DNA of 46,175 nucleotides, taken from assembly GCA_012964665.1 (NCBI GenBank), contig DTTO01000011.1, forward strand, positions 1-46,175, in the 5' to 3' direction. The number at the start of each line of letters is the position of its first letter. The first letter of the stretch is position 1. Positions 15,044-25,241 of the stretch are shown one piece after another. The position numbers and the translations under genes are program-made. Origin of the DNA: Fidelibacterota bacterium. GTDB taxonomy: Bacteria > Fidelibacterota > Marinisomatia > Marinisomatales > TCS55. Below the pieces are notes generated by a model. That model did not search any database, was not told the DNA's origin, and saw nothing but the letters and a program-made list of their open reading frames with translations.

Positions 15044-16327
15044 TCAAGCGGGGGTGCCAATCAGTTCAAATTCATTGGACGATTCAATTTTTACATCTAT
15101 GAATTCTCCTTTTTCTACCGGTGATTTAATATGGACAATATTATCTATTTCAGGAGAGTCAAATTCTGTTCGCCCTACAGAGACAGTATTTCCTTTTTTA
15201 TCTACTAAGACTTTATAGGTTTTTCCGACCATTGCCATATTTTTTTCAGCACTGATTCCGGCCTGCAAATCCATAATTCGTGCTTTACGTTCGTTCTTTA
15301 CTTCCGCCAACACATTATCTTTCAGGTCCGCAGCAATAGTGCCTTCTTCCTCCGAGTAAGTAAATACACCTAAACGATCAAACCGTATTTCTTTGACAAA
15401 GTCATATAATTCTTGGAATTCAAACTCGGTTTCGCCAGGATAACCAACAATCAGGGTCGTCCGTAGTCGGATATTAGGGATTGTATCTCTCAATTTTTTT
15501 ATCCGGTTTCGTATTCCTTCTTTACCTAATCCTCTGCGCATGGATTTTAAAATTGAATCAGAAGCATGCTGAATAGGCATATCCAAATAGTGGCATACCT
15601 TTTCTGAAGCAGCCATACCTTCAATAATGCGCTGGGATAAATGGGCTGGGTGTGCATAATGCAGACGAATCCAATCCACATTTAGATTTCCTAGTTCTTT
15701 AATCAATTTATCAAGATACACTTTTGGTTTCAAATCCCAACCATAACTGGTAGAATCCTGAGCAATCACTAGTAATTCTCTAATTCCCTGATCTACTAGT
15801 TTTTCTGCTTCCCACATAATTGATTCAATCGATCGACTTTTTTGTAGACCGCGCATAATTGGAATACTGCAGAACGAACAGCCATTATCGCAACCTTCAG
15901 CAATTTTAAGATACGCATAATGGTTTGGAGTCATAAGTGAGCGAAAAAATAAAGGGTCATCCTGCGCAAAATCTTTTCCAGTAAGAAAAGACACAATTTG
16001 CTTGTGATTGTTACTGCCAAAAAAACGATCCACTTCGGGAATTTCCGCAGCCAATTCTTCCGGGTGCCTTTCAGATAGACAACCCATTACTACCAATTGG
16101 TTGAGGTTACCGGATTTCTTTAATTCAGCAGCCGCTAGTATCGTTTCAATTGATTCTTCCCGAGCCATTTCCAAAAAGCCGCAGGTATTTACCACAATTG
16201 TATCTGCCTCTTCCGGTTCTTGAGTAATTTGAAATTGACTCTTTATTAATCCACCCAAAAGTATCTCAGAATCAACTAATGCTTTGGCACATCCCAGGCT
16301 TATTATCGTCAATTTAGGATCAGGCAT
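15044..16327 (-). CDS. rimO: Ribosomal protein S12 methylthiotransferase RimO
   Basis: A radical-SAM enzyme that adds a methylthio group to an Asp of ribosomal protein S12. The 427-residue protein has all three domains: N-terminal UPF0004 with cluster cysteines C13, C49 and C83; radical SAM core with C146-x3-C150-x2-C153 (CDNGCSFC); and a C-terminal TRAM domain from about residue 365. The opening LTIISLGCAKALVDSE is diagnostic for RimO rather than MiaB. It is the last gene of the ten-gene minus-strand run and starts 3 bases after the ftsY stop. Confidence 0.96.
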   Translation of the reverse strand: MPDPKLTIISLGCAKALVDSEILLGGLIKSQFQITQEPEEADTIVVNTCGFLEMAREESIETILAAAELKKSGNLNQLVVMGCLSERHPEELAAEIPEVDRFFGSNNHKQIVSFLTGKDFAQDDPLFFRSLMTPNHYAYLKIAEGCDNGCSFCSIPIMRGLQKSRSIESIMWEAEKLVDQGIRELLVIAQDSTSYGWDLKPKVYLDKLIKELGNLNVDWIRLHYAHPAHLSQRIIEGMAASEKVCHYLDMPIQHASDSILKSMRRGLGKEGIRNRIKKLRDTIPNIRLRTTLIVGYPGETEFEFQELYDFVKEIRFDRLGVFTYSEEEGTIAADLKDNVLAEVKNERKARIMDLQAGISAEKNMAMVGKTYKVLVDKKGNTVSVGRTEFDSPEIDNIVHIKSPVEKGEFIDVKIESSNEFELIGTPA

Positions 16328-16330
16328 ATA

Positions 16331-17224
16331 CTACGATGCTGGGATACCCAGCAGTCCCTGAATATATTCTTGCCGATTAAACACATATAGATCATCCAAA
16401 TCTTCCCCCACACCGATAAATTTCACAGGAATACCCAATTCCTTATATAATGGAAAAATGATACCACCTTTGGCTGTGCCATCCATTTTAGTAAGAATCG
16501 CACCATCCATTTGCACGCGGTCCGAAAATTCACGGGCTTGAATAAGAGAGTTTTGGCCCAAGCTGGCATCCAACGTAATTAAAGAATGAATATTGAAATT
16601 CGGAAATCGAGATTCAGCCACAAGGTACATTTTTTCCAGTTCCCGCATAAGATTTTTGTAAGTATGCAGTCGCCCAGCTGTATCAATAATAACCATATCC
16701 ATTGATCTATTCTGCGCCGCAGATAACCCATCAAACAATACTGCAGAAGGTTGTTGCGACTTTTCATTATAAATAATTTTGACATCTAAACGATTGGCCC
16801 AAATTTTTAGTTGTTCCACCGCTGCTGCTCGATAAGTGTCCGCACCAATCAACAATACTTTTTTACCTAATGATTTATAATATTGTGCCAATTTTGCAAC
16901 GCTAGTTGTTTTACCGGTACCATTCACACCTACAACCATAAGAGCTGTTGGTTTTTTGTGTAATATTTCTCCATTATTATTTTGAGGTAAAATAGAAATT
17001 AAGTAATCGGAAACTTTGTGAATTAGATTATTCATTCGGTGCTTCTCCACCACTTTCAAAATCGCTTGAACTGTAACAAAACCCATGTCAGCCGAAATGA
17101 GTGTATTTTCCAGTTCTTCAAGTGATTCTGGACTGACTTTGCGTTGTATCACTGTATCAAAGGCTTTAGAAACGGATTTTCTTGTCCGGCGCAGAGCCTG
17201 AAATATTTTTCCTATCAGGGCCAT
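16331..17224 (-). CDS. ftsY: Signal recognition particle receptor FtsY
   Basis: FtsY is the membrane-associated GTPase that receives Ffh-ribosome complexes and hands them to the Sec translocon. The 297-residue protein contains the N domain and G domain only, with P-loop GVNGTGKT at 99-106, DTAGRL at 181-186 and TKMDGTAKGG near the C-terminus. It lacks the long acidic A domain of the E. coli protein, as many bacteria do; the basic N-terminus (LRRTRKSVSK) may help membrane contact. It is directly joined to pgsA upstream (no intergenic base) and rimO downstream. Its partner Ffh is encoded at the left end of the window. Confidence 0.97.
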   Translation of the reverse strand: MALIGKIFQALRRTRKSVSKAFDTVIQRKVSPESLEELENTLISADMGFVTVQAILKVVEKHRMNNLIHKVSDYLISILPQNNNGEILHKKPTALMVVGVNGTGKTTSVAKLAQYYKSLGKKVLLIGADTYRAAAVEQLKIWANRLDVKIIYNEKSQQPSAVLFDGLSAAQNRSMDMVIIDTAGRLHTYKNLMRELEKMYLVAESRFPNFNIHSLITLDASLGQNSLIQAREFSDRVQMDGAILTKMDGTAKGGIIFPLYKELGIPVKFIGVGEDLDDLYVFNRQEYIQGLLGIPAS

Positions 17225-17791
17225 CTAGGACATTTTCTTATATTCTTTGACAAATGTTCTGATGTAGGTCACCCAGCTTACAGTCAACAAAAAGGTTGCG
17301 ACATAAATTGTGAACTCCTTTAGCCAAGGAAAAGCTTGCCAAGGCCATATATGCACCAGCAAAGCCAGGGCAGTAACACCAGCAGCCCACTTTCCCCACC
17401 AGTTAGCACTCGATATAAAATCAGAATGATTCAAAAGATAAATAGCTGGTATTGCAATGACAACATAGCGTACCAGATAAAAGGTAAAAAACCAGCCTGG
17501 GAAACGATCCACAAGAGTAAGATAAGCTGCGACAGATAAAATGCAGGCAAAATCAGCGATTGGGTCAATCCATTTTCCAAAATGAGTAACTTCATGTGCT
17601 TTGCGCGCAACCCAACCGTCCAAAGCATCAGAAAGTATAGCAATTATAATTAGCACAAATGTAATAGTACCCAAAGCTGGATCCCTTAGAGTATAAATGA
17701 TTGGTACAGCCAAAAGCGCACGGCCAAGACTTATTATATTTGCCAGTGTTAAAATACGAGTCGGATCTGTTATTTTAATTTTATTTTTCAT
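17225..17791 (-). CDS. pgsA: CDP-alcohol phosphatidyltransferase (PgsA-like)
   Basis: Likely makes phosphatidylglycerophosphate from CDP-diacylglycerol and glycerol-3-phosphate. The 188-residue membrane protein carries the family motif D58-G59-x2-A62-R63-x8-G72-x3-D76-x3-D80 with every key residue present, plus about five hydrophobic helices. The opening TLANIISLGR matches PgsA-type members, but the CDP-alcohol substrate is not proven by the motif; phosphatidylinositol or other headgroups are alternatives. It overlaps the ABC ATPase gene by 11 bases and touches ftsY, so it is part of the envelope operon. Confidence 0.88.
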   Translation of the reverse strand: MKNKIKITDPTRILTLANIISLGRALLAVPIIYTLRDPALGTITFVLIIIAILSDALDGWVARKAHEVTHFGKWIDPIADFACILSVAAYLTLVDRFPGWFFTFYLVRYVVIAIPAIYLLNHSDFISSANWWGKWAAGVTALALLVHIWPWQAFPWLKEFTIYVATFLLTVSWVTYIRTFVKEYKKMS

Positions 17792-19097
17792 TAATTAAGA
17801 CAGTTTTATTTCGTGTCACAATTTGTGCATCTATATCATAAATATAATCACAATGATCTGATACAAAAACTTTATCATGAGAAATAAGTATCAGATATTT
17901 ATTGATTAAAATTTCTTGAAAAAAACGGCTTAAATTCATTTTTTGCTTCCACCCCAGTCCAAAGGTAGGTTCATCCAATATAAGTACATCATATTCACAG
18001 TGAGCCAGAATGATAATTAATGCCAAACGTAGGCTTGACCATGGAATATCTAATGCGGATTGATCTTTAATTATTTCCCAATTGATTTGATATTTGTAAA
18101 GTCTATTGATGCATTTATTGACCAAATGTGAATTCATTTTTTGGTTCACCACTAAATTTGATACAAGTGATTCTAATGTATTGGCGCCTAACATCCGTTC
18201 CGGGAATTGATCTAGCACGGCGATTCGAGGAACTTTCTTTTTTAGGTGTATTTGAATTTCTCCTTTTTCTGGTAAAATCAATCCAGTAATCAATTTTGAT
18301 AAGGTTGTTTTTCCTTTTCCGTTTTTACCAATTAATCCGATCGACCTTGCCTGACTAATATTACAATTCCAATTATCGATAACAGGATAATCACTTTTGC
18401 TATAACTGAATAAAAGATTGTTAAACTTTATGGCCAGATCTCCTTTTGGATGTTGGTAACTATATCGGTTTAAATCAGGTATCATATCTAATGATTGGAA
18501 GCTGGATAAACTTAACTCCCATTTGGTATCGCCAAATGCCAAATCCGTGGGATCAGAAGTAAACCATAAAACTATTTTTCCTCTGGAAATTTTGTTTCTG
18601 ATCCAGTCTACCCAATTCTCTTTAGAATCATCATTTAAAAATGAAAGTCCATCATCAATAAATACCAACCGAGGATTTGTACTAAATGCCGTCACCAGGT
18701 TCAGCATTTCCATTTGACCGCCACTTAGTGTTTCAGGATGCCGATTCCAATTATTAACAAAGGGTAAATCGGACTTCAATAGCGCAAGTTTTTCTTGAAG
18801 TTCCTGAGGATGAATCGATTGACATTCGGAGGCAAAGGCTAATTCTGACTCGAGGGTATTAGATAAAATTTGATTTTCAGGATTTTGAAAAACAATCTGG
18901 CAAGATTCTGGGATAACGATATTTGTAAATGTGAAATTGGATTCTTGCTCATCTTTTAAACCCGAAAGTGAATAAATAAATTGCGATTTTCCACTTCCAC
19001 TTTCGCCATAAATAACATGGAGACCAGGAGGGAATGAAATATGCATTGAATTTTCGAATTTCTGAAAATTCAAATTAAAGGAAATATGATCAGTCAT
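17781..19097 (-). CDS. Double-NBD ABC ATPase, ECF/CbiO-like, one degenerate site
   Basis: A 438-residue protein made of two fused ABC ATPase domains and no membrane segment. The N-terminal half has Walker A GESGSGKS (31-38), Q-loop VFQNPENQ as in EcfA/CbiO proteins, signature LSGGQ (124-128), but a Walker B ending D148-D149 instead of D-E and Ser181 in the switch-His position. The C-terminal half has Walker A GKNGKGKT (257-264), Walker B LDEP (D375, E376) and switch H407, but a lost signature (SSLRLAL, 354-360). It would therefore form one canonical and one degenerate site. No EcfT, S component or other permease lies nearby. It overlaps waaA by 8 and pgsA by 11 bases. Substrate unknown; vitamin or metal uptake is typical for the ECF type. 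Confidence 0.85.
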   Translation of the reverse strand: MTDHISFNLNFQKFENSMHISFPPGLHVIYGESGSGKSQFIYSLSGLKDEQESNFTFTNIVIPESCQIVFQNPENQILSNTLESELAFASECQSIHPQELQEKLALLKSDLPFVNNWNRHPETLSGGQMEMLNLVTAFSTNPRLVFIDDGLSFLNDDSKENWVDWIRNKISRGKIVLWFTSDPTDLAFGDTKWELSLSSFQSLDMIPDLNRYSYQHPKGDLAIKFNNLLFSYSKSDYPVIDNWNCNISQARSIGLIGKNGKGKTTLSKLITGLILPEKGEIQIHLKKKVPRIAVLDQFPERMLGANTLESLVSNLVVNQKMNSHLVNKCINRLYKYQINWEIIKDQSALDIPWSSLRLALIIILAHCEYDVLILDEPTFGLGWKQKMNLSRFFQEILINKYLILISHDKVFVSDHCDYIYDIDAQIVTRNKTVLINEK

Positions 19098-20367
19098 GAA
19101 TTAGGTTACGAACAACCCGCGTAGCAGAACCAAGATTACGATGGATCACTTCAGTTGCTGCATAGCTTGCTTTGATAAATGCAACTCTGTTTTCAAATAA
19201 ATTTTTGATACCTTCATAGAGAGCCGTCCCATTTTCAATAGAGAATCCACCGCCATCGGCAATCAGTTCTTTCGCTTCATTAAAATTTTTGTGATAGGGA
19301 CCAAAAAATACAGGTAGACGTGCAATCGCCGGTTCCATCACATTGTGTACGCCACTTGAAAATCCGCCCCCAATGTATGCAACTTGACCATCCCAATAAA
19401 GCTGAGATAACTTTCCAATGGAATCAACAATGATTACCCTTGTTTCAATTTGATCGGGATTGTTTAAACCTAATCTAGCTGTCGTAAAATGCTTTAATTG
19501 AAAAAAGGATTCGGCTTCAGATACAATCCTATCGCTAGGTTCGTGTGGCACCCAAACCAGAGTTAAATCCTTAATATCCCGCATTAAATTTACAATTGAA
19601 TCCAAAATAACATGTTCATCTTCTGTGTGGATACTGCCGGCAATCAATCGTTTTGGTCTTAAAAGCACAGATTCTGTCCGTTCTGTGGTGAAATTATCGG
19701 ATTTCTGTTTGACTTGATCATAACGAGGATTCCCTAAGACGCGAACAATCGGACGTTTCATCGGATGCAAGATGCGCTGAAGTCTTTTATTATCCTGTTC
19801 AGAAATCGTATAAATTGCCGATAGAGATCCATAAACATTTCGGTAAAAATTTCGTATTACTGGGGAAAGTTTTGAAGTGCCTTCTGAAAATTGAGCGGCA
19901 AACAAAGCGGAATGTATACCCATAGACCTTGATACCCAAATCAGGTTTGGCCAGACATCGTAAGCTGCCAGAATTATTTTTTTGGGTTGGACAAGATTTA
20001 AGCATTTTCGTATTAACCAGGGAAAATCGAATGGTAAATAGATTTTGCAATCAATATGCTCATCATTTACATGGTTATAGCCCGATGGTGAAAAAAAACT
20101 CACCACAGAAAATGACAAAGGCTCTACTTCCTTTAAGCCTGCAAGGACTGGTTTTACTTGCTCAAATTCCCCATGGGAAGACGCGTGGAACCAATAGATA
20201 GTTTTTCCTGTACCAGTACGCTCCATAAAGGATTTTAAATCCTGATAAGATCTGAAGCGCCCAATCATTCCTAATCGTATTTTTTCTAGGAATAAACTGC
20301 CAGTGCAAAACATAGCAAACAATAGCGGAAGAAGAATAAGATTATATATTATTTTCCAAAAAATCAT
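19090..20367 (-). CDS. waaA: 3-deoxy-D-manno-octulosonic acid (Kdo) transferase
   Basis: Transfers Kdo from CMP-Kdo to lipid A precursors at the inner face of the cytoplasmic membrane. The 425-residue protein starts with a hydrophobic anchor (about 5-22) and has the catalytic-base region HASSHGEFEQ with Glu67, followed by the CMP-binding C-terminal domain containing GGGFSSGVHNVMEPA at about 345-359. This is the GT30 layout. One to three Kdo additions are possible and cannot be told from sequence. It overlaps waaF-like by one base and the ABC gene by 8. With the heptosyltransferase-like gene it is direct evidence for LPS in this organism. Confidence 0.95.
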   Translation of the reverse strand: MIFWKIIYNLILLPLLFAMFCTGSLFLEKIRLGMIGRFRSYQDLKSFMERTGTGKTIYWFHASSHGEFEQVKPVLAGLKEVEPLSFSVVSFFSPSGYNHVNDEHIDCKIYLPFDFPWLIRKCLNLVQPKKIILAAYDVWPNLIWVSRSMGIHSALFAAQFSEGTSKLSPVIRNFYRNVYGSLSAIYTISEQDNKRLQRILHPMKRPIVRVLGNPRYDQVKQKSDNFTTERTESVLLRPKRLIAGSIHTEDEHVILDSIVNLMRDIKDLTLVWVPHEPSDRIVSEAESFFQLKHFTTARLGLNNPDQIETRVIIVDSIGKLSQLYWDGQVAYIGGGFSSGVHNVMEPAIARLPVFFGPYHKNFNEAKELIADGGGFSIENGTALYEGIKNLFENRVAFIKASYAATEVIHRNLGSATRVVRNLIHD

Positions 20368-21392
20368 CAGCCCAATACTTTCGAAACTGCTGATATAACT
20401 TGATCAGGCTGAATTCTAGTCATACAATATTGTTCTTTGCGATAACAGGGAATGCTACCATTTTGGGAACAAGGCCGACACCATAAACTTTTTTCTTCTA
20501 CAACTTGAGAATTTTTTAAGAACACGCCAGCACCAGTTTCCCGTGATGTTGGTCCCAATAAGGTAATCGCAGGAATACCCAAGGCCTCCCCTGCGTGGAG
20601 AAATCCGGTGTCACTTCCAAGGACAAATTCAGCTTGACTAACTATAGCTAAAGATTCTCTTAAATTTGTTTTCCCATGGAAATCGACTACAGGCGAATCT
20701 GCAATATTTTTTATCCAATTACAAATGTCATCACCTAACCCACCAATCAATACAGGATACATCTGAAATTGATGAACGCAATCATCAATCACTTTTGCAT
20801 AACGGTCCGCTTTCCATCGCTTTTGTGACCAAGCCGCTCCTGGAGTGACAACAAAATATTTTCCCTTTAAGTCATACTTATATAAAAATTCACGGACATC
20901 ACTTTTTTCAGCCTCCGAAACAAATAAATGGGTGCCCTTAACGGAAAAATTTTCCGGTAGAAAATCTTGAATTGGTTCATGGAGCCAAGATCGGATTGAA
21001 AAATTTTCCTGAAAATCATTTTTATGAAATGCAAATAATTTGAAACGTTTCCAACGTGGTTTTTTTATATGAACATTTTTTGTATTGATAAACCCTCTTC
21101 GAATCACCTGGGAACGAGTTGTATTATGAAGATCAATCGCGAGATCATAACCCATCATTTCCATTTCATAACCAATTTGCCTTAGTCTTTTATAACCAGC
21201 ATTTATGTCCACTGCATGGACTTTATTAATATGTGGATGCCCTTCTAACAAAGGTGCAAATTTAGAGAGTGTCATGAAATCAATCTTCGATTCAGGGAAA
21301 TATTGCATTATTGTGTTGACTAATGAGGTAGTCTGCACAATATCTCCAATCGAACTGAAACGCAGGACCAGAATGGTCCGAGGGAGGTTCAT
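20367..21392 (-). CDS. waaF: Family 9 glycosyltransferase (heptosyltransferase-like)
   Basis: A 341-residue GT-B enzyme of family GT9, which adds ADP-heptose to the LPS core. Visible markers are the N-terminal RTILVLRFSSIGDIVQTTSL, the central VTPGAAWSQKRWK acceptor-side motif, and the donor-site stretch VLGSDTGFLHAGEALGIP with GPTSRE following it. GT9 covers heptosyltransferases I, II and III and some other sugars, so the symbol is a best guess from context beside waaA. Four cysteines near the C-terminus (WCRPCSQNGSIPC, QYC) are also seen in other GT9 proteins. It overlaps waaA by one base and is 6 bases from the polyprenyl synthase gene. Confidence 0.88.
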   Translation of the reverse strand: MNLPRTILVLRFSSIGDIVQTTSLVNTIMQYFPESKIDFMTLSKFAPLLEGHPHINKVHAVDINAGYKRLRQIGYEMEMMGYDLAIDLHNTTRSQVIRRGFINTKNVHIKKPRWKRFKLFAFHKNDFQENFSIRSWLHEPIQDFLPENFSVKGTHLFVSEAEKSDVREFLYKYDLKGKYFVVTPGAAWSQKRWKADRYAKVIDDCVHQFQMYPVLIGGLGDDICNWIKNIADSPVVDFHGKTNLRESLAIVSQAEFVLGSDTGFLHAGEALGIPAITLLGPTSRETGAGVFLKNSQVVEEKSLWCRPCSQNGSIPCYRKEQYCMTRIQPDQVISAVSKVLG

Positions 21393-21398
21393 AATGAA

Positions 21399-22391
21399 TC
21401 AGCCTGTACGCTGAACGTTGAAACTAATCAGGTCCACCATAGATTGCTTATATGGAGAATCTGGATAAGGCGAGATGGCATCCAATGCCTGGTGATTAAA
21501 TTCTTCTATTTTTTGTTTAGCATAATTAAACCCACCAGCAGAATGAACCATCTCTTTTAAATCATTTAAATCGCTGATGGATTTTCTTTTTTGGGATAAT
21601 ATTTTTTTAACGTGACGTGTTTCTGATTTTGAAAGCGTCTCATAACAGTGAATAAGTGGCAGAGTTAGCATATTTCGCTTTACATCCGCACCCATATCTT
21701 TTCCTGTTTGTTTTTCGTTTCCTAATAAGTCAAATAAATCGTCTTTCACTTGGAAAGCCATTCCCAATTTAGTACCGTAGATCATCATCGCTTTTCGGTC
21801 TTTTGCCTTTCCAGTGGATGTAATGGCACCCAATTCACAACTTGTTGAAACCAGTGAAGCCGTTTTCTGGTAGATCATTTCATAATACACTTTTTTTGTC
21901 ATAGATTTTGTTAATGATTTTTCAATTTGAAGAATTTCACCTGCACTAAGTTTTTCGGCGGTGTCTGCAATCAACTGTAAGGCAGAAAAATCTCTTAGAC
22001 CCACCATATTGATTAGCGCCTTACTTAACATAAAATCACCCATAAGTACTGCAATTTTATTTTTCCAAAGACGGTTAATAGATGGGAATCCACGACGTTT
22101 TTCCGCTTCATCAACTACATCATCATGAATTAATGTGGCAATATGAAGTATTTCAATCAATGCTGCCGCGCGATAACTATTTAGGGTAGGCTGGCCACAA
22201 ATACGCGAAGCTAAAATCGTTAACACAGGGCGAATATGCTTTCCTTTGTGGCGAAGAATATATTTACCAATAATATTAATCAACCGTACCTCAGAGCGAA
22301 GTGCATTGCGGAATTCTTCTTCGAATAGCTTGATATCATCGAATATTGGCTCGGTAATATGTTGTAAAGATTTGAGTTCTTTTTTCATCAA
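21399..22391 (-). CDS. Long-chain polyprenyl diphosphate synthase
   Basis: A trans-prenyltransferase that extends farnesyl or geranyl diphosphate with isopentenyl diphosphate; the product may serve as the quinone tail. The 330-residue protein shows both Asp-rich motifs: first DDVVD at 90-94 with RRG at 99-101, second DDLFD at 217-221 in the VKDDLFD context. The fifth residue before the first motif is Ala85, a small side chain that usually allows long products (C30 or more) rather than GPP/FPP. Octaprenyl/heptaprenyl type (IspB/HepT-like) is the best reading, exact length unknown. It lies between tatC (6 bases) and the LPS transferases. Confidence 0.92.
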   Translation of the reverse strand: MMKKELKSLQHITEPIFDDIKLFEEEFRNALRSEVRLINIIGKYILRHKGKHIRPVLTILASRICGQPTLNSYRAAALIEILHIATLIHDDVVDEAEKRRGFPSINRLWKNKIAVLMGDFMLSKALINMVGLRDFSALQLIADTAEKLSAGEILQIEKSLTKSMTKKVYYEMIYQKTASLVSTSCELGAITSTGKAKDRKAMMIYGTKLGMAFQVKDDLFDLLGNEKQTGKDMGADVKRNMLTLPLIHCYETLSKSETRHVKKILSQKRKSISDLNDLKEMVHSAGGFNYAKQKIEEFNHQALDAISPYPDSPYKQSMVDLISFNVQRTG

Positions 22392-22397
22392 GATAAA

Positions 22398-23132
22398 TTA
22401 CTCTTTTTTCTTTCGATTAACCAACCAACTCACAACAATACTGATTTCATATAAGGCCATTAGAGGAATTGACATCAGGAGCAAGCTTATCGGATCCGGC
22501 GGTGTGATAAATGCGCTCAATATTAAAATAACGATAGCAGCATGGCGACGATAATGCCTCATAAATGTTGGTGTTAATAAACCAATTATGGATAGAATAA
22601 AAACCAAGACAGGTAATTCAAAAATGAGCCCGCTTCCTATCATTAGCCAAGTAATAAAATTGAAATAATAATTAATTGAAAAATTATTTTGTATTCCGGG
22701 CATGCCAACAGATGTAAAGAAATCCAATGAGAAAGGGATAGTAATAGTGTAAGCGAAAACCAGTCCAGTCAAAAATGAGAGATAGGTAAAAATAATCAGC
22801 GGCGTTACGTATTTCTTTTCATTCATATATAAACCAGGAACAATGAATTTCCACAATTGATATGTTAAAACAGGAATAGCTAAAACAAAACCACCAATCA
22901 GGGCGATCCCCCACTTGATCATAAACATTCCTTGAACTTTCAACACTTGCAAATCCATCGGTGTTGTTAAGTCTCTGGTGGGTCTTATTAAAAAATCTAT
23001 GAGTGGATCAATATAGAAAAATGTTATCAGTGCCCCCACTAACACCGTTCCCAGCGATTTAATAAGTCGCCAACGTAATTCCTCCAAATGGTCTAGGAAA
23101 GGCATGGACTTTGAAAGCTTATTCATTGGCAC
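22398..23132 (-). CDS. tatC: Sec-independent protein translocase TatC
   Basis: TatC is the signal-peptide receptor of the twin-arginine export system for folded proteins. The 244-residue protein has the conserved cytosolic N-terminal motif FLDHLEELRWRL at 12-23, six hydrophobic helices, and the typical FVLAIPVLTYQLWKFIVPGL segment. No tatA or tatB gene is in the window, so they must lie elsewhere. The start overlaps meaB by 14 bases; the in-frame Met3 (MNKLSKSMPF) or Met10 could also be used. Location beside ftsY and envelope genes makes an export/envelope operon. Confidence 0.97.
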   Translation of the reverse strand: MPMNKLSKSMPFLDHLEELRWRLIKSLGTVLVGALITFFYIDPLIDFLIRPTRDLTTPMDLQVLKVQGMFMIKWGIALIGGFVLAIPVLTYQLWKFIVPGLYMNEKKYVTPLIIFTYLSFLTGLVFAYTITIPFSLDFFTSVGMPGIQNNFSINYYFNFITWLMIGSGLIFELPVLVFILSIIGLLTPTFMRHYRRHAAIVILILSAFITPPDPISLLLMSIPLMALYEISIVVSWLVNRKKKE

Positions 23133-24060
23133 TGTCTAGAAGTCTTTTGACCACTTTGTACGGCGATTCATTGGTCATACTTAAATTATGAACAGAGGCC
23201 TCCAATTGATCCAATCGTTCTTGCGACCAGAATTTACCAAGAAGTCGATCTTGAATTAAATTCAATACTCTATTACGGTGGCGATCCGAATATTTCTGAC
23301 TCATCAACCCTTTTTCTATCATTACTTCGGTTAAATTGGTTAATCCTTTGTAGAGTTCCGAAATTCCTTCATTTCGATCTGCAGATGTATTATAAATCGG
23401 TGGTTCCAAATGGTCTTTCTTGGTAGTCGAATGTAGAATACTTTTTAAAGATTGAGCCAATCGATCAGCTCCTTGACGGTCAGATTTATTTACTACGAAA
23501 ATATCAGCAATTTCAATCAGGCCCGCTTTCATCAGTTGAACCTCATCTCCCGATTCGGGCACCAGGACAACTATCGTTAAATCAACAGCTTTGGCTACAT
23601 CGAGTTCTCCTTGGCCCACACCAACTGTTTCAAAGATTACCACATCTTTACCGCTAGTGGCAAGAATATCACCCACATCCTGGGCTTTGCGGGCCAACCC
23701 ACCTAAATCGCCATGGGATGCCATACTTCTGATAAATACATTATCATCCCATATATAATGATTCATCCTCACACGATCTCCTAGAAGCGAACCCCCGGTA
23801 AAAGGACTGGTGGGATCTACAGCCACAACTCCAACACTTTTACCATCTGATATAATCTGCTGGATTAACTGATCAGTAAGTGTACTCTTTCCTGCGCCGG
23901 GAGGGCCGGTAACACCAAGCCTTAATGCTTGGTTAGCATGGTCATGTAACTGCTGGAAAAATGTATCCGGTATTTCAGCGTTATTTTCTATCTGGCTGAT
24001 GACCCTTGAGAGGTAACGGTGATCGTTCGATCGAATTCGATCCAGCGTATCAAAATCCAT
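23119..24060 (-). CDS. meaB: MeaB/ArgK-type G3E P-loop GTPase
   Basis: A chaperone GTPase that protects and loads adenosylcobalamin into methylmalonyl-CoA mutase. The 313-residue protein has P-loop GPPGAGKST at 52-60, VVAVDPTSPFTGGSLLGDRVRM just after it, and a FETVGVGQGE switch segment, all diagnostic for the MeaB family. The C-terminal dimerisation helix segment is present. The mutase genes are not in the window; the family is most likely tied to propionate or methylmalonyl-CoA metabolism elsewhere on the genome. It follows the crp-like gene by 16 bases and overlaps tatC by 14. Confidence 0.95.
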   Translation of the reverse strand: MDFDTLDRIRSNDHRYLSRVISQIENNAEIPDTFFQQLHDHANQALRLGVTGPPGAGKSTLTDQLIQQIISDGKSVGVVAVDPTSPFTGGSLLGDRVRMNHYIWDDNVFIRSMASHGDLGGLARKAQDVGDILATSGKDVVIFETVGVGQGELDVAKAVDLTIVVLVPESGDEVQLMKAGLIEIADIFVVNKSDRQGADRLAQSLKSILHSTTKKDHLEPPIYNTSADRNEGISELYKGLTNLTEVMIEKGLMSQKYSDRHRNRVLNLIQDRLLGKFWSQERLDQLEASVHNLSMTNESPYKVVKRLLDSANE

Positions 24061-24076
24061 TATAATGCAGTATTAT

Positions 24077-24763
24077 TTAGGAAAATACTCGACGGAAAGC
24101 ATCAAAATTATAAATCGTAAGATTCTTATTTTTCCGTCTAACCAATTTTTTATCTTCTAGCAGTTTTAAGGTGCGCGATACTGTTTCTCTGGATGTGCCT
24201 GCCATGTTGGCAATATCTTGCTGATAAGGTAGGTTTTTTACAGTAACATGACCTTGTTTTATTGTACCTAATTCTCCTGCCAGTCGAATCAGAGTAATTC
24301 CAATACGATGTTCGGAATCACTGAGTGAAAGGCTTTCAATCTGCTGGTCACTTTTCCGTAAACGAATTGCCAATTCTTCTAATAATGCAATGGCTATTTT
24401 TGGATACGATTCTAAACAATCCAGGAAATCACTGCGAGAAAGGGTTAGTACTTTTGCGTATTCATTGGCAACAATATTGGCTGAACGTCCCTCGCCATCC
24501 AAAAGAGACATTTCACCAAAAAAATCACTTTCTCCTAACATAGCCAGAATAACTTCCCTGCCATCAGCACTAAGGCGAGTAACTTTGACGGCACCTTGAG
24601 TAATAATAAAAAATGTTTCACCCATACTTTCTTCTAAAAGGATCATCTGTCCTTTTTCATAAACCCGGGGCACCATATTTGATGCAATCTTTGTTAAATC
24701 TGAATCTGTTAAGTCAGTAAAGATAGGAACATTGCGAAGATGGTCGGTTTTACTCATATCCAA
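24077..24763 (-). CDS. Crp/Fnr family transcriptional regulator (CRP-like)
   Basis: A 228-residue regulator with an N-terminal cyclic-nucleotide-binding beta-roll (about 12-120), a dimer helix and a C-terminal winged helix. The phosphate cassette keeps GEMSL at 83-87 and RSA at 93-95, as in cAMP-binding CRP; there is no N-terminal Cys cluster, so it is not an FNR-type iron-sulfur sensor. The recognition helix reads SRETVSRTLKLLED (191-204), keeping Arg192, Glu193 and Arg197, equivalent to the base-contacting R180, E181 and R185 of E. coli CRP. The frame opens with TTG at 24763; ATG at 24757 (MSKTDHLR) is a likely alternative. It heads the ten-gene envelope run; a matching operator lies about 65 bases upstream. 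Confidence 0.93.
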   Translation of the reverse strand: MDMSKTDHLRNVPIFTDLTDSDLTKIASNMVPRVYEKGQMILLEESMGETFFIITQGAVKVTRLSADGREVILAMLGESDFFGEMSLLDGEGRSANIVANEYAKVLTLSRSDFLDCLESYPKIAIALLEELAIRLRKSDQQIESLSLSDSEHRIGITLIRLAGELGTIKQGHVTVKNLPYQQDIANMAGTSRETVSRTLKLLEDKKLVRRKNKNLTIYNFDAFRRVFS

Positions 24764-24793
24764 AAATACACTTTAAAAGACAATAGATGAAAA

Positions 24794-24889
24794 AGGTAAA
24801 ATTAAGACAATTCCAATTAACCAGCTGTGATCAATGTCACAGAATTAGTGTTTATTTTCCTTCTGAAAACTGATTGGTTAATTTTACCT
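24794..24889. repeat. Perfect 12-bp inverted repeat flanking the CRP-type site
   Basis: AGGTAAAATTAA at 24794-24805 is the exact inverse of TTAATTTTACCT at 24878-24889, with 72 bases between that contain the TGTGA-N6-TCACA operator. A second copy of part of the arm (AATTAACC at 24815-24822) also pairs with GGTTAATT at 24876-24883. This nested symmetry could place two further protein-binding sites around the operator, or reflect AT-rich chance. Confidence 0.55.
24826..24841. promoter_or_regulatory. CRP-type operator TGTGA-N6-TCACA
   Basis: TGTGATCAATGTCACA at 24826-24841 is a perfect match to the CRP half-sites TGTGA and TCACA with a 6-base spacer. It lies in the 220-base divergent region between a CRP-like gene (start 24763 or 24757) and rpsT (start 24984). 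The regulator's recognition helix keeps the residues that read TGTGA in E. coli CRP, so autoregulation is the simplest reading; control of rpsT is also possible. Confidence 0.75.
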
Positions 24890-24983
24890 CATTCCTCCAA
24901 ATCTACCAATAATTTTACTAGTAGAGTAGCATCATTTTCAATAATTTTGCCACCGAATTTTTAATAAATACTTAAGGATTAAA

Positions 24984-25241
24984 ATGGACAGACATCCGCA
25001 ACAGATCAAACGAGAACGCCAGGATAAAAAACGTCATGAATTTAATGTGGCCAAAATATCACATATGAAGACAGCAATCAAACGTGTATTAGAGTCCAAT
25101 AATGCAAGTGAAGCGGAAGGTCTTTACAAAAATGCCGTCAAAACTATCGATAAGATGGTAAGCAAAGGTCATTTAAAGAAAAATACCGCTGCCCGCAGAA
25201 AATCTCAGATTACCCGGCATTTTAATTCTTTATCTAATTGA
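24984..25241 (+). CDS. rpsT: 30S ribosomal protein S20
   Basis: S20 binds 16S rRNA early in 30S assembly. The 85-residue, strongly basic helical protein matches S20 throughout: opening HPQQIKRERQDKKRHEFN, the central MKTAIKRVLESNNASEAE segment and the closing KGHLKKNTAARRKSQITR. Length is normal. An AAGGA ribosome-binding site lies at 24974-24978, 5 bases before the ATG. It is a single-gene unit with a strong terminator 27 bases after the stop and a CRP-type operator about 145 bases upstream. Confidence 0.97.
   Translation: MDRHPQQIKRERQDKKRHEFNVAKISHMKTAIKRVLESNNASEAEGLYKNAVKTIDKMVSKGHLKKNTAARRKSQITRHFNSLSN

Follow-up and report, generated by a model that had tools for sequence, protein, structure and literature searches.

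The window, a stretch of 46,175 nucleotides from a Fidelibacterota draft genome (1.59 Mb, 75.6% complete; contig DTTO01000011.1 of assembly GCA_012964665.1), carries a gene for a CRP-type regulator at the head of a run of ten minus-strand genes. From the first gene to the last (24757 to 15044), neighbours overlap or are separated by at most 16 bp. A 220-bp gap leads from the regulator (minus strand) to the divergent gene rpsT (plus strand), and within it lies the sequence TGTGATCAATGTCACA (Table 1). The initial annotation had described an exact CRP-type site beside the gene of its own regulator, and we confirm it at this position.

Table 1. Genes and regulatory features of the locus, in window coordinates.
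Feature	Coordinates	Strand	Remarks
rpsT, ribosomal protein S20, divergent neighbour	24984..25241	+	ATG at 24984; probably not the target of the operator
CRP-type operator TGTGATCAATGTCACA, read toward crp as TGTGACATTGATCACA	24826..24841	-	Exact match; -84 to -69 from the crp ATG
TAATTTTA, putative -7 box of CRP-dependent promoter P1	24797..24804	-	37 bp from site start, 21 bp past site end
TTCA, replacing the -33 box TTTG of other genera	24788..24791	-	23 bp upstream of the P2 -7 box; -33 element lost
TATTTTTG, -7 box of the presumed ancestral short-leader promoter P2	24761..24768	-	11 bp upstream of the ATG
crp-type regulator	24077..24757	-	226 aa from the ATG; cNMP_binding and HTH_Crp_2 over cut-off
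meaB-type GTPase	23119..24060	-	TIGR00750 over cut-off; begins 16 bp past the crp end
tatC	22398..23132	-	TIGR00945 over cut-off
Polyprenyl diphosphate synthase (ispB/hepT-like)	21399..22391	-	
Heptosyltransferase-like, waaF family	20367..21392	-	Below cut-off
KDO transferase-like, waaA family	19090..20367	-	Below cut-off
Double ABC ATPase, ECF/CbiO-like	17781..19097	-	
CDP-alcohol phosphatidyltransferase, pgsA-like	17225..17791	-	
ftsY, SRP receptor	16331..17224	-	TIGR00064 over cut-off
rimO, final gene of the run	15044..16327	-	TIGR01125 over cut-off

The regulator and its operon

Matches above cut-off to PF00027 (84.8 bits) and PF13545 (49.7 bits) place the regulator in the CRP/FNR superfamily. 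A TTG codon 6 bp upstream of the ATG would extend the protein to 228 residues; we prefer the ATG at 24757 because all orthologues align from it. Identity to E. coli CRP is 29% (60 of 208 aligned residues), which rules out an E. coli-specific origin, and the nearest named relatives, the closest at 81-88% identity, all come from Candidatus Neomarinimicrobiota or Marinimicrobia.

Set against the E. coli CRP sequence, R190, E191 and R195 correspond to R180, E181 and R185 and are invariant among the aligned family members, whereas G81 E82 and R91 S92 of the GE...RSA cassette correspond to G71 E72 and R82 S83. The equivalent of R123 is also kept. Both the contact residues and the cyclic-nucleotide cassette had been pointed out in the initial annotation and are indeed present, although its numbering of the former (Arg192, Glu193, Arg197) counts from the upstream TTG. 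Other positions differ: T127/S128 are replaced by Ser136/Asp137 and G184 by Ser, and the AR2 residues H19, H21 and K101 are not retained, so that contacts with polymerase would differ from those in E. coli. The protein scores 105.6 bits against the NCBIfam Crp equivalog (PRK11753), below its cut-off of 266. Among the closest full-length solved relatives are actinobacterial CRP-family structures (4byy, 4cyd, 3d0s and others), those of GlxR and Mycobacterium CRP; they have the same domain layout, whereas their regulon and genomic setting are unrelated.

For comparison we used 40 genomes of the same family, labelled g1 to g8 by genus, with the window in g1. The regulator is the sole HTH_Crp_2 match over cut-off in the window's genome, and likewise in most family genomes, which makes it, with fair confidence, the reader of the operator motif. 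Two g2 genomes encode a second copy (G006:C45:10970-11641 and G001:C55:19258-19932), 56-58% identical to the window's regulator and adjoining a gene for a long cNMP-domain protein.

Gene order downstream of the regulator is conserved across the phylum as crp-meaB-tatC-ispB-waaF: of 80 named loci, 65 have meaB close behind crp and 62 have tatC next. As judged from its layout, the run is a tight, conserved operon, in which internal promoters may also act. The SRP gene it contains is ftsY, with ffh located away from the run at 429-1760. The initial annotation had tied LPS, Tat and SRP genes to the regulator through this run. That tie is reasonable given the operon, but most genera carry the operon without the site, so the link to CRP would be an addition made in one lineage, not a trait of the operon in general.

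Conservation and history of the operator

From base composition, about 0.00015 perfect TGTGA-N6-TCACA motifs are expected in the 220-bp gap. Over the window's genome the perfect motif occurs twice, against about 1.8 by chance and two for a letter-reversed control, and the one-mismatch motif 53 times against 20 for the reversed pattern. A genome-wide motif search, to which the initial annotation had looked, therefore yields only a chance number of perfect places in this genome; the count by itself is no proof and we dropped it as an argument, the proof lying in position and conservation. Scans for sigma-70 promoters and terminators returned only chance-level numbers.

The comparison of orthologues, together with the DNA upstream of them, covered 32 family genomes. 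All 16 orthologues from g1, g3 and g6 keep the site, 15 of them perfectly and one, in g1, at 9/10. It stands exactly at -84 from the crp ATG in g1 and g3 and at -90 or -92 in g6, and its half-sites have mean identities of 1.00 and 0.98 against 0.72 for the six-base spacer. Where rpsT has moved away, to about 743-745 bp in four g1 genomes (G016, G021, G025 and G018) and to 319 bp in another (G024), the distance of -84 is unchanged; thus the site belongs to crp. Among the family orthologues compared, it is absent upstream of crp in g2, g4, g5, g7 and g8, most of which retain the crp/rpsT arrangement and the recognition helix. This helix, SRETVSR, is common to orthologues with and without the site and so is not a signature of it. 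The initial annotation had hung its proposal on conservation in relatives with the same gene pair, and this survives in all 16 cases within the clade and ends at its borders. The operator upstream of crp is real, and the comparison supports it well.

In a tree of 45 regulators, 18 rows from g1, g3, g6 and g7 form one supported clade (100/99). Sixteen of these bear the site, no site-bearing row falls elsewhere in the tree, and shuffled labels never cluster as well. The two g7 rows are fast-evolving and have neither the site nor the TTTG element discussed below. The simplest history would be a single gain of the site followed by one later loss, in g7. Outside the family, an Ignavibacteriae relative (L239) carries a perfect site, TGTGATGCTAATCACA, 40 bp upstream of the start of its own regulator gene, possibly an independent gain of autoregulation.

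Promoter geometry and other targets

Siteless genera and outgroup families mostly carry TTTG-N19-TAnnTTTG, or a close match, ending a few bases before the crp ATG. TTTG and TAnnTTTG are the -33 and -7 consensus elements reported for Bacteroides (PMC7366714), and the -7 part is as in Flavobacterium, where the box is numbered -12 to -5 (PMC9723704). By the flavobacterial numbering, the P2 transcript would start at or beside the ATG. The position of the P2 -7 box is constant throughout the family, including the site-bearing clade, where the -33 element is replaced by TCCA, ACCA, TTCA, TTCT or TGTT. None of the 16 site-bearing crp genes has TTTG-N19-TAnnTT at the start codon; of the Bacteroidetes-type sigma-A promoter that most siteless relatives possess, the window's genome keeps the -7 part only. 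The association between gain of the site and loss of TTTG is suggestive, but the two changes each took place once, so that it amounts to one event and is not statistically independent; a correlated-evolution test was uninformative, with too few independent events.

A TAnnTT(T) box lies exactly 37 bp from the site start in all 16 site-bearing crp genes, those of g6 included. This putative P1 box reads TAnnTTTA or weaker, short of the full TAnnTTTG. With the box at -12, the site would be centred at -41.5, the class II position of CRP (PMC5957442). An alternative placing of the CRP-dependent promoter at the P2 box, close to the ATG, was dropped: the site lies 73 or 79 bp upstream of it according to genus, with no common phase, whereas the box at offset 37 fits all genera with one distance.

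The same spacing recurs at other targets. Over 29 target families the summed fraction of TAnnTT peaks at offset 37 (5.0, against a mean of 0.34 and sd of 0.56 at other offsets), and this offset is still the top one with crp left out (a random-offset test without crp matches it in 0.0001 of trials). The box is found in six of six cases before a large secreted protein that has a transporter-cNMP protein nearby, in six of six before a cyclase-adjacent lipoprotein and in two of two before one g4 gene; the capD, 105-112-aa protein and fliL targets have none at this offset. Since the offset was first noticed in the same family data, a scan of 130 genomes across the order is the fairer test. There the N21 arrangement occurs at 59 places in 39 genomes, against six places in six genomes for a spacing 5 bp longer (N26, the single control spacing, the remaining offsets being covered by the family-only profile) and three for the letter-reversed pattern. 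Nineteen of the 59 places fall outside the family, and seven of eight class II matches examined there are intergenic, several of them before genes for lipoproteins or other secreted proteins. The fixed 37-bp offset and the N21 excess both agree with class II geometry relative to a predicted transcript start.

Perfect sites are enriched before genes in genomes that carry the regulator: 73 of 109 examined in the family are intergenic, with an excess in g1-g4, g6 and g7, and the family-wide sum is about 110 places against 29 for the reversed pattern. In g5 (G013, G014) and g8 (G034-G039), seven of seven and four of six perfect sites lie inside genes; despite the invariant recognition helix, these genera seem to have lost the regulon or to read another motif. 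The recurrent targets are crp itself, capD (g1), a secreted protein of 105-112 residues followed by one of about 309 (g1, g3, g6 and g7), a large secreted protein (g3, g6 and g7), a lipoprotein behind a CHASE2 cyclase (g2 and g4) and a fliL-fliM locus (g7).

Several of these loci deserve description. The second perfect site in the window's genome (L002 1501-1516; G000:C73:3322) lies 74 bp upstream of a CapD/FlaA1-like nucleotide-sugar/polysaccharide gene and is conserved in g1. The 105-112-residue protein (L116 1621-1938, L038 1088-1411, L039 1605-1937, L118 2135-2461, L144 1643-1972, L148 1562-1894, L150 2078-2416) is of low complexity and had no Pfam match where tested, in L116; its promoter-like box lies about 55-60 bp from the site and so would not be class II. 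A class II-spaced site precedes the secreted-protein gene in L149 (2009-2024) and L145 (2060-2075), near a gene for a transporter-like protein of 1040-1052 residues (L149 5337-8459, with a C-terminal cNMP domain; L145 5413-8571) that resembles NTT-HEAT-cNBD fusions (PMC5381601). In g7 a perfect site (1501-1516 in both L090 and L091) lies 99 bp upstream of genes that we named by eye as fliL-like and then fliM-like, which suggests control of motility. In four g1 genomes a perfect site falls 20 bp within the predicted start of a 322-residue gene (L125 2060, L142 2032, L096 1501, L057 345); either this start is misannotated or the site acts intragenically.

The cyclase search that the initial annotation had in mind was productive. 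Class III cyclase domains (PF00211) are present in 36 of the 40 family genomes, and the window's genome has three, two with CHASE2 and one with TPR repeats. The CHASE2 cyclases read KYIGD and YTMMGDTVNLAAR, carrying the Lys and Asp/Thr substrate residues in the Lys/Thr pattern expected of adenylate cyclases, which makes cAMP a likely ligand. In g2 and g4, where crp has no site, a perfect class II site stands behind the gene for a CHASE2 class III cyclase (L070 3921-3936, L071 1939-1954, L072 1869-1884, L073 3641-3656, L074 2043-2058, L075 1894-1909, L076 1395-1410), 66-68 bp upstream of the gene for a lipoprotein of 312-313 residues, which in L073 lies past the contig end.

Interpretation and significance

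We propose that the regulator, probably loaded with cAMP that CHASE2-type class III cyclases supply, occupies the palindrome ahead of its gene and would activate transcription from the -7 box 21 bp downstream, taking the place of a -33 element in a class II arrangement. Such positive autoregulation would also raise the co-directional operon crp-meaB-tatC-ispB-waaF-waaA-ABC-pgsA-ftsY-rimO. The clade would have acquired P1 once, during the decay of the -33 TTTG in the older short-leader promoter, and the same regulator may govern other envelope genes via like sites. For this reading as a whole, in which a probably cAMP-responsive CRP activates its own gene in class II mode and serves a wider envelope regulon, our confidence is about 0.6. 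Its parts differ in strength. Binding and autoregulation are very probable, given the fixed upstream position in the clade, the fidelity of the site to crp when rpsT moves and the promoter box at fixed spacing; here the suggestion of the initial annotation is well supported. Activation in class II mode has a good chance of being correct, and cAMP as the ligand only slightly less. On a broader statement our confidence is a little better than even: that a CRP-type class II activator works on Bacteroidetes-like -7 promoters across an envelope regulon, and that in one clade the crp promoter was rewired from a constitutive form (TTTG at -33) to a CRP-dependent one, with a positive feedback loop carrying LPS, Tat and SRP-receptor genes.

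The pocket keeps the phosphate and ribose residues of cAMP-activated Crp (E82, R91 and S92, for E72, R82 and S83), yet Ser/Asp at the positions of the adenine-contacting T127/S128 may alter the choice of ligand. The cyclic-nucleotide connection drawn in the initial annotation is thus strengthened by the cyclases and weakened by this substitution and by the low Crp equivalog score. These two features would also fit the same site and autoregulation with an effector other than cAMP, be it a different nucleotide, some other small molecule or none at all, as in SdrP of Thermus, a CRP-family member that reportedly acts without a ligand; 4ev0, among the best solved-structure matches, is itself annotated merely as a Crp-family regulator. 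We regard such an effector as a lesser possibility, because the equivalents of E72, R82, S83 and R123 are retained, CHASE2 cyclases with the Lys and Thr expected for ATP occur across the family, and, in g2 and g4, a cyclase gene is directly followed by a CRP site.

Autoregulation of E. coli crp includes a negative component, and the site-bearing clade retains the P2 -7 box. The bound regulator might accordingly repress crp, for instance through looping or by obstructing the P1 -33 region, with P2 as the working promoter. This is improbable: it is precisely the site-bearing clade that has lost the TTTG of P2, P2 and the site do not overlap, and the distance from site to box matches class II activation and turns up at unrelated promoters across the order. 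A site acting on rpsT, or one recognised by a different DNA-binding protein, is suggested by the divergent intergenic region and is highly improbable: the distance of -84 from crp is kept where rpsT has left the neighbourhood, and neither the window's genome nor most others yield a second CRP-type helix-turn-helix over cut-off. A chance palindrome or short terminator-like hairpin might be read into the chance number of two perfect motifs per genome and into the terminator scan, which lists the site as a 7-bp stem, but half-sites that stay invariant over 16 species while spacers change, and the minute expectation for the gap, make its probability negligible.

In common with E. coli CRP and the class II promoters it serves, the locus has the TGTGA/TCACA half-sites, the equivalents of R180/E181/R185 and E72/R82/S83 and the predicted centre at -41.5. 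It differs in the protein substitutions given above, in the TAnnTTTG-type -7 box and in heading an envelope/export operon. In proteobacterial autoregulated crp genes a CRP site likewise precedes the gene itself; here the regulation would be simple class II activation, gained in one clade in replacement of a -33 element. The ancestral crp promoter is like the sigma-A promoters of Bacteroidetes and Flavobacterium, a likeness of promoter sequence alone, whereas the phylum is Neomarinimicrobiota and the derived promoter has a CRP site in place of TTTG. The autoregulated CRP-type activator is thus of a kind already known. The apparent novelty lies in the phylum, in the type of promoter and in the documented replacement of the promoter, and in the literature open to search we found no description of a CRP regulon in Marinimicrobia.

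Marinimicrobia (SAR406) abound in the dark ocean, and since hardly any have been cultured, their regulation is known from sequence only. The conserved operator, the fixed promoter geometry and the list of targets together provide a testable second-messenger regulon for this group. In addition, the states before and after the replacement of a promoter's -33 element by an activator site can be clearly compared within the family.
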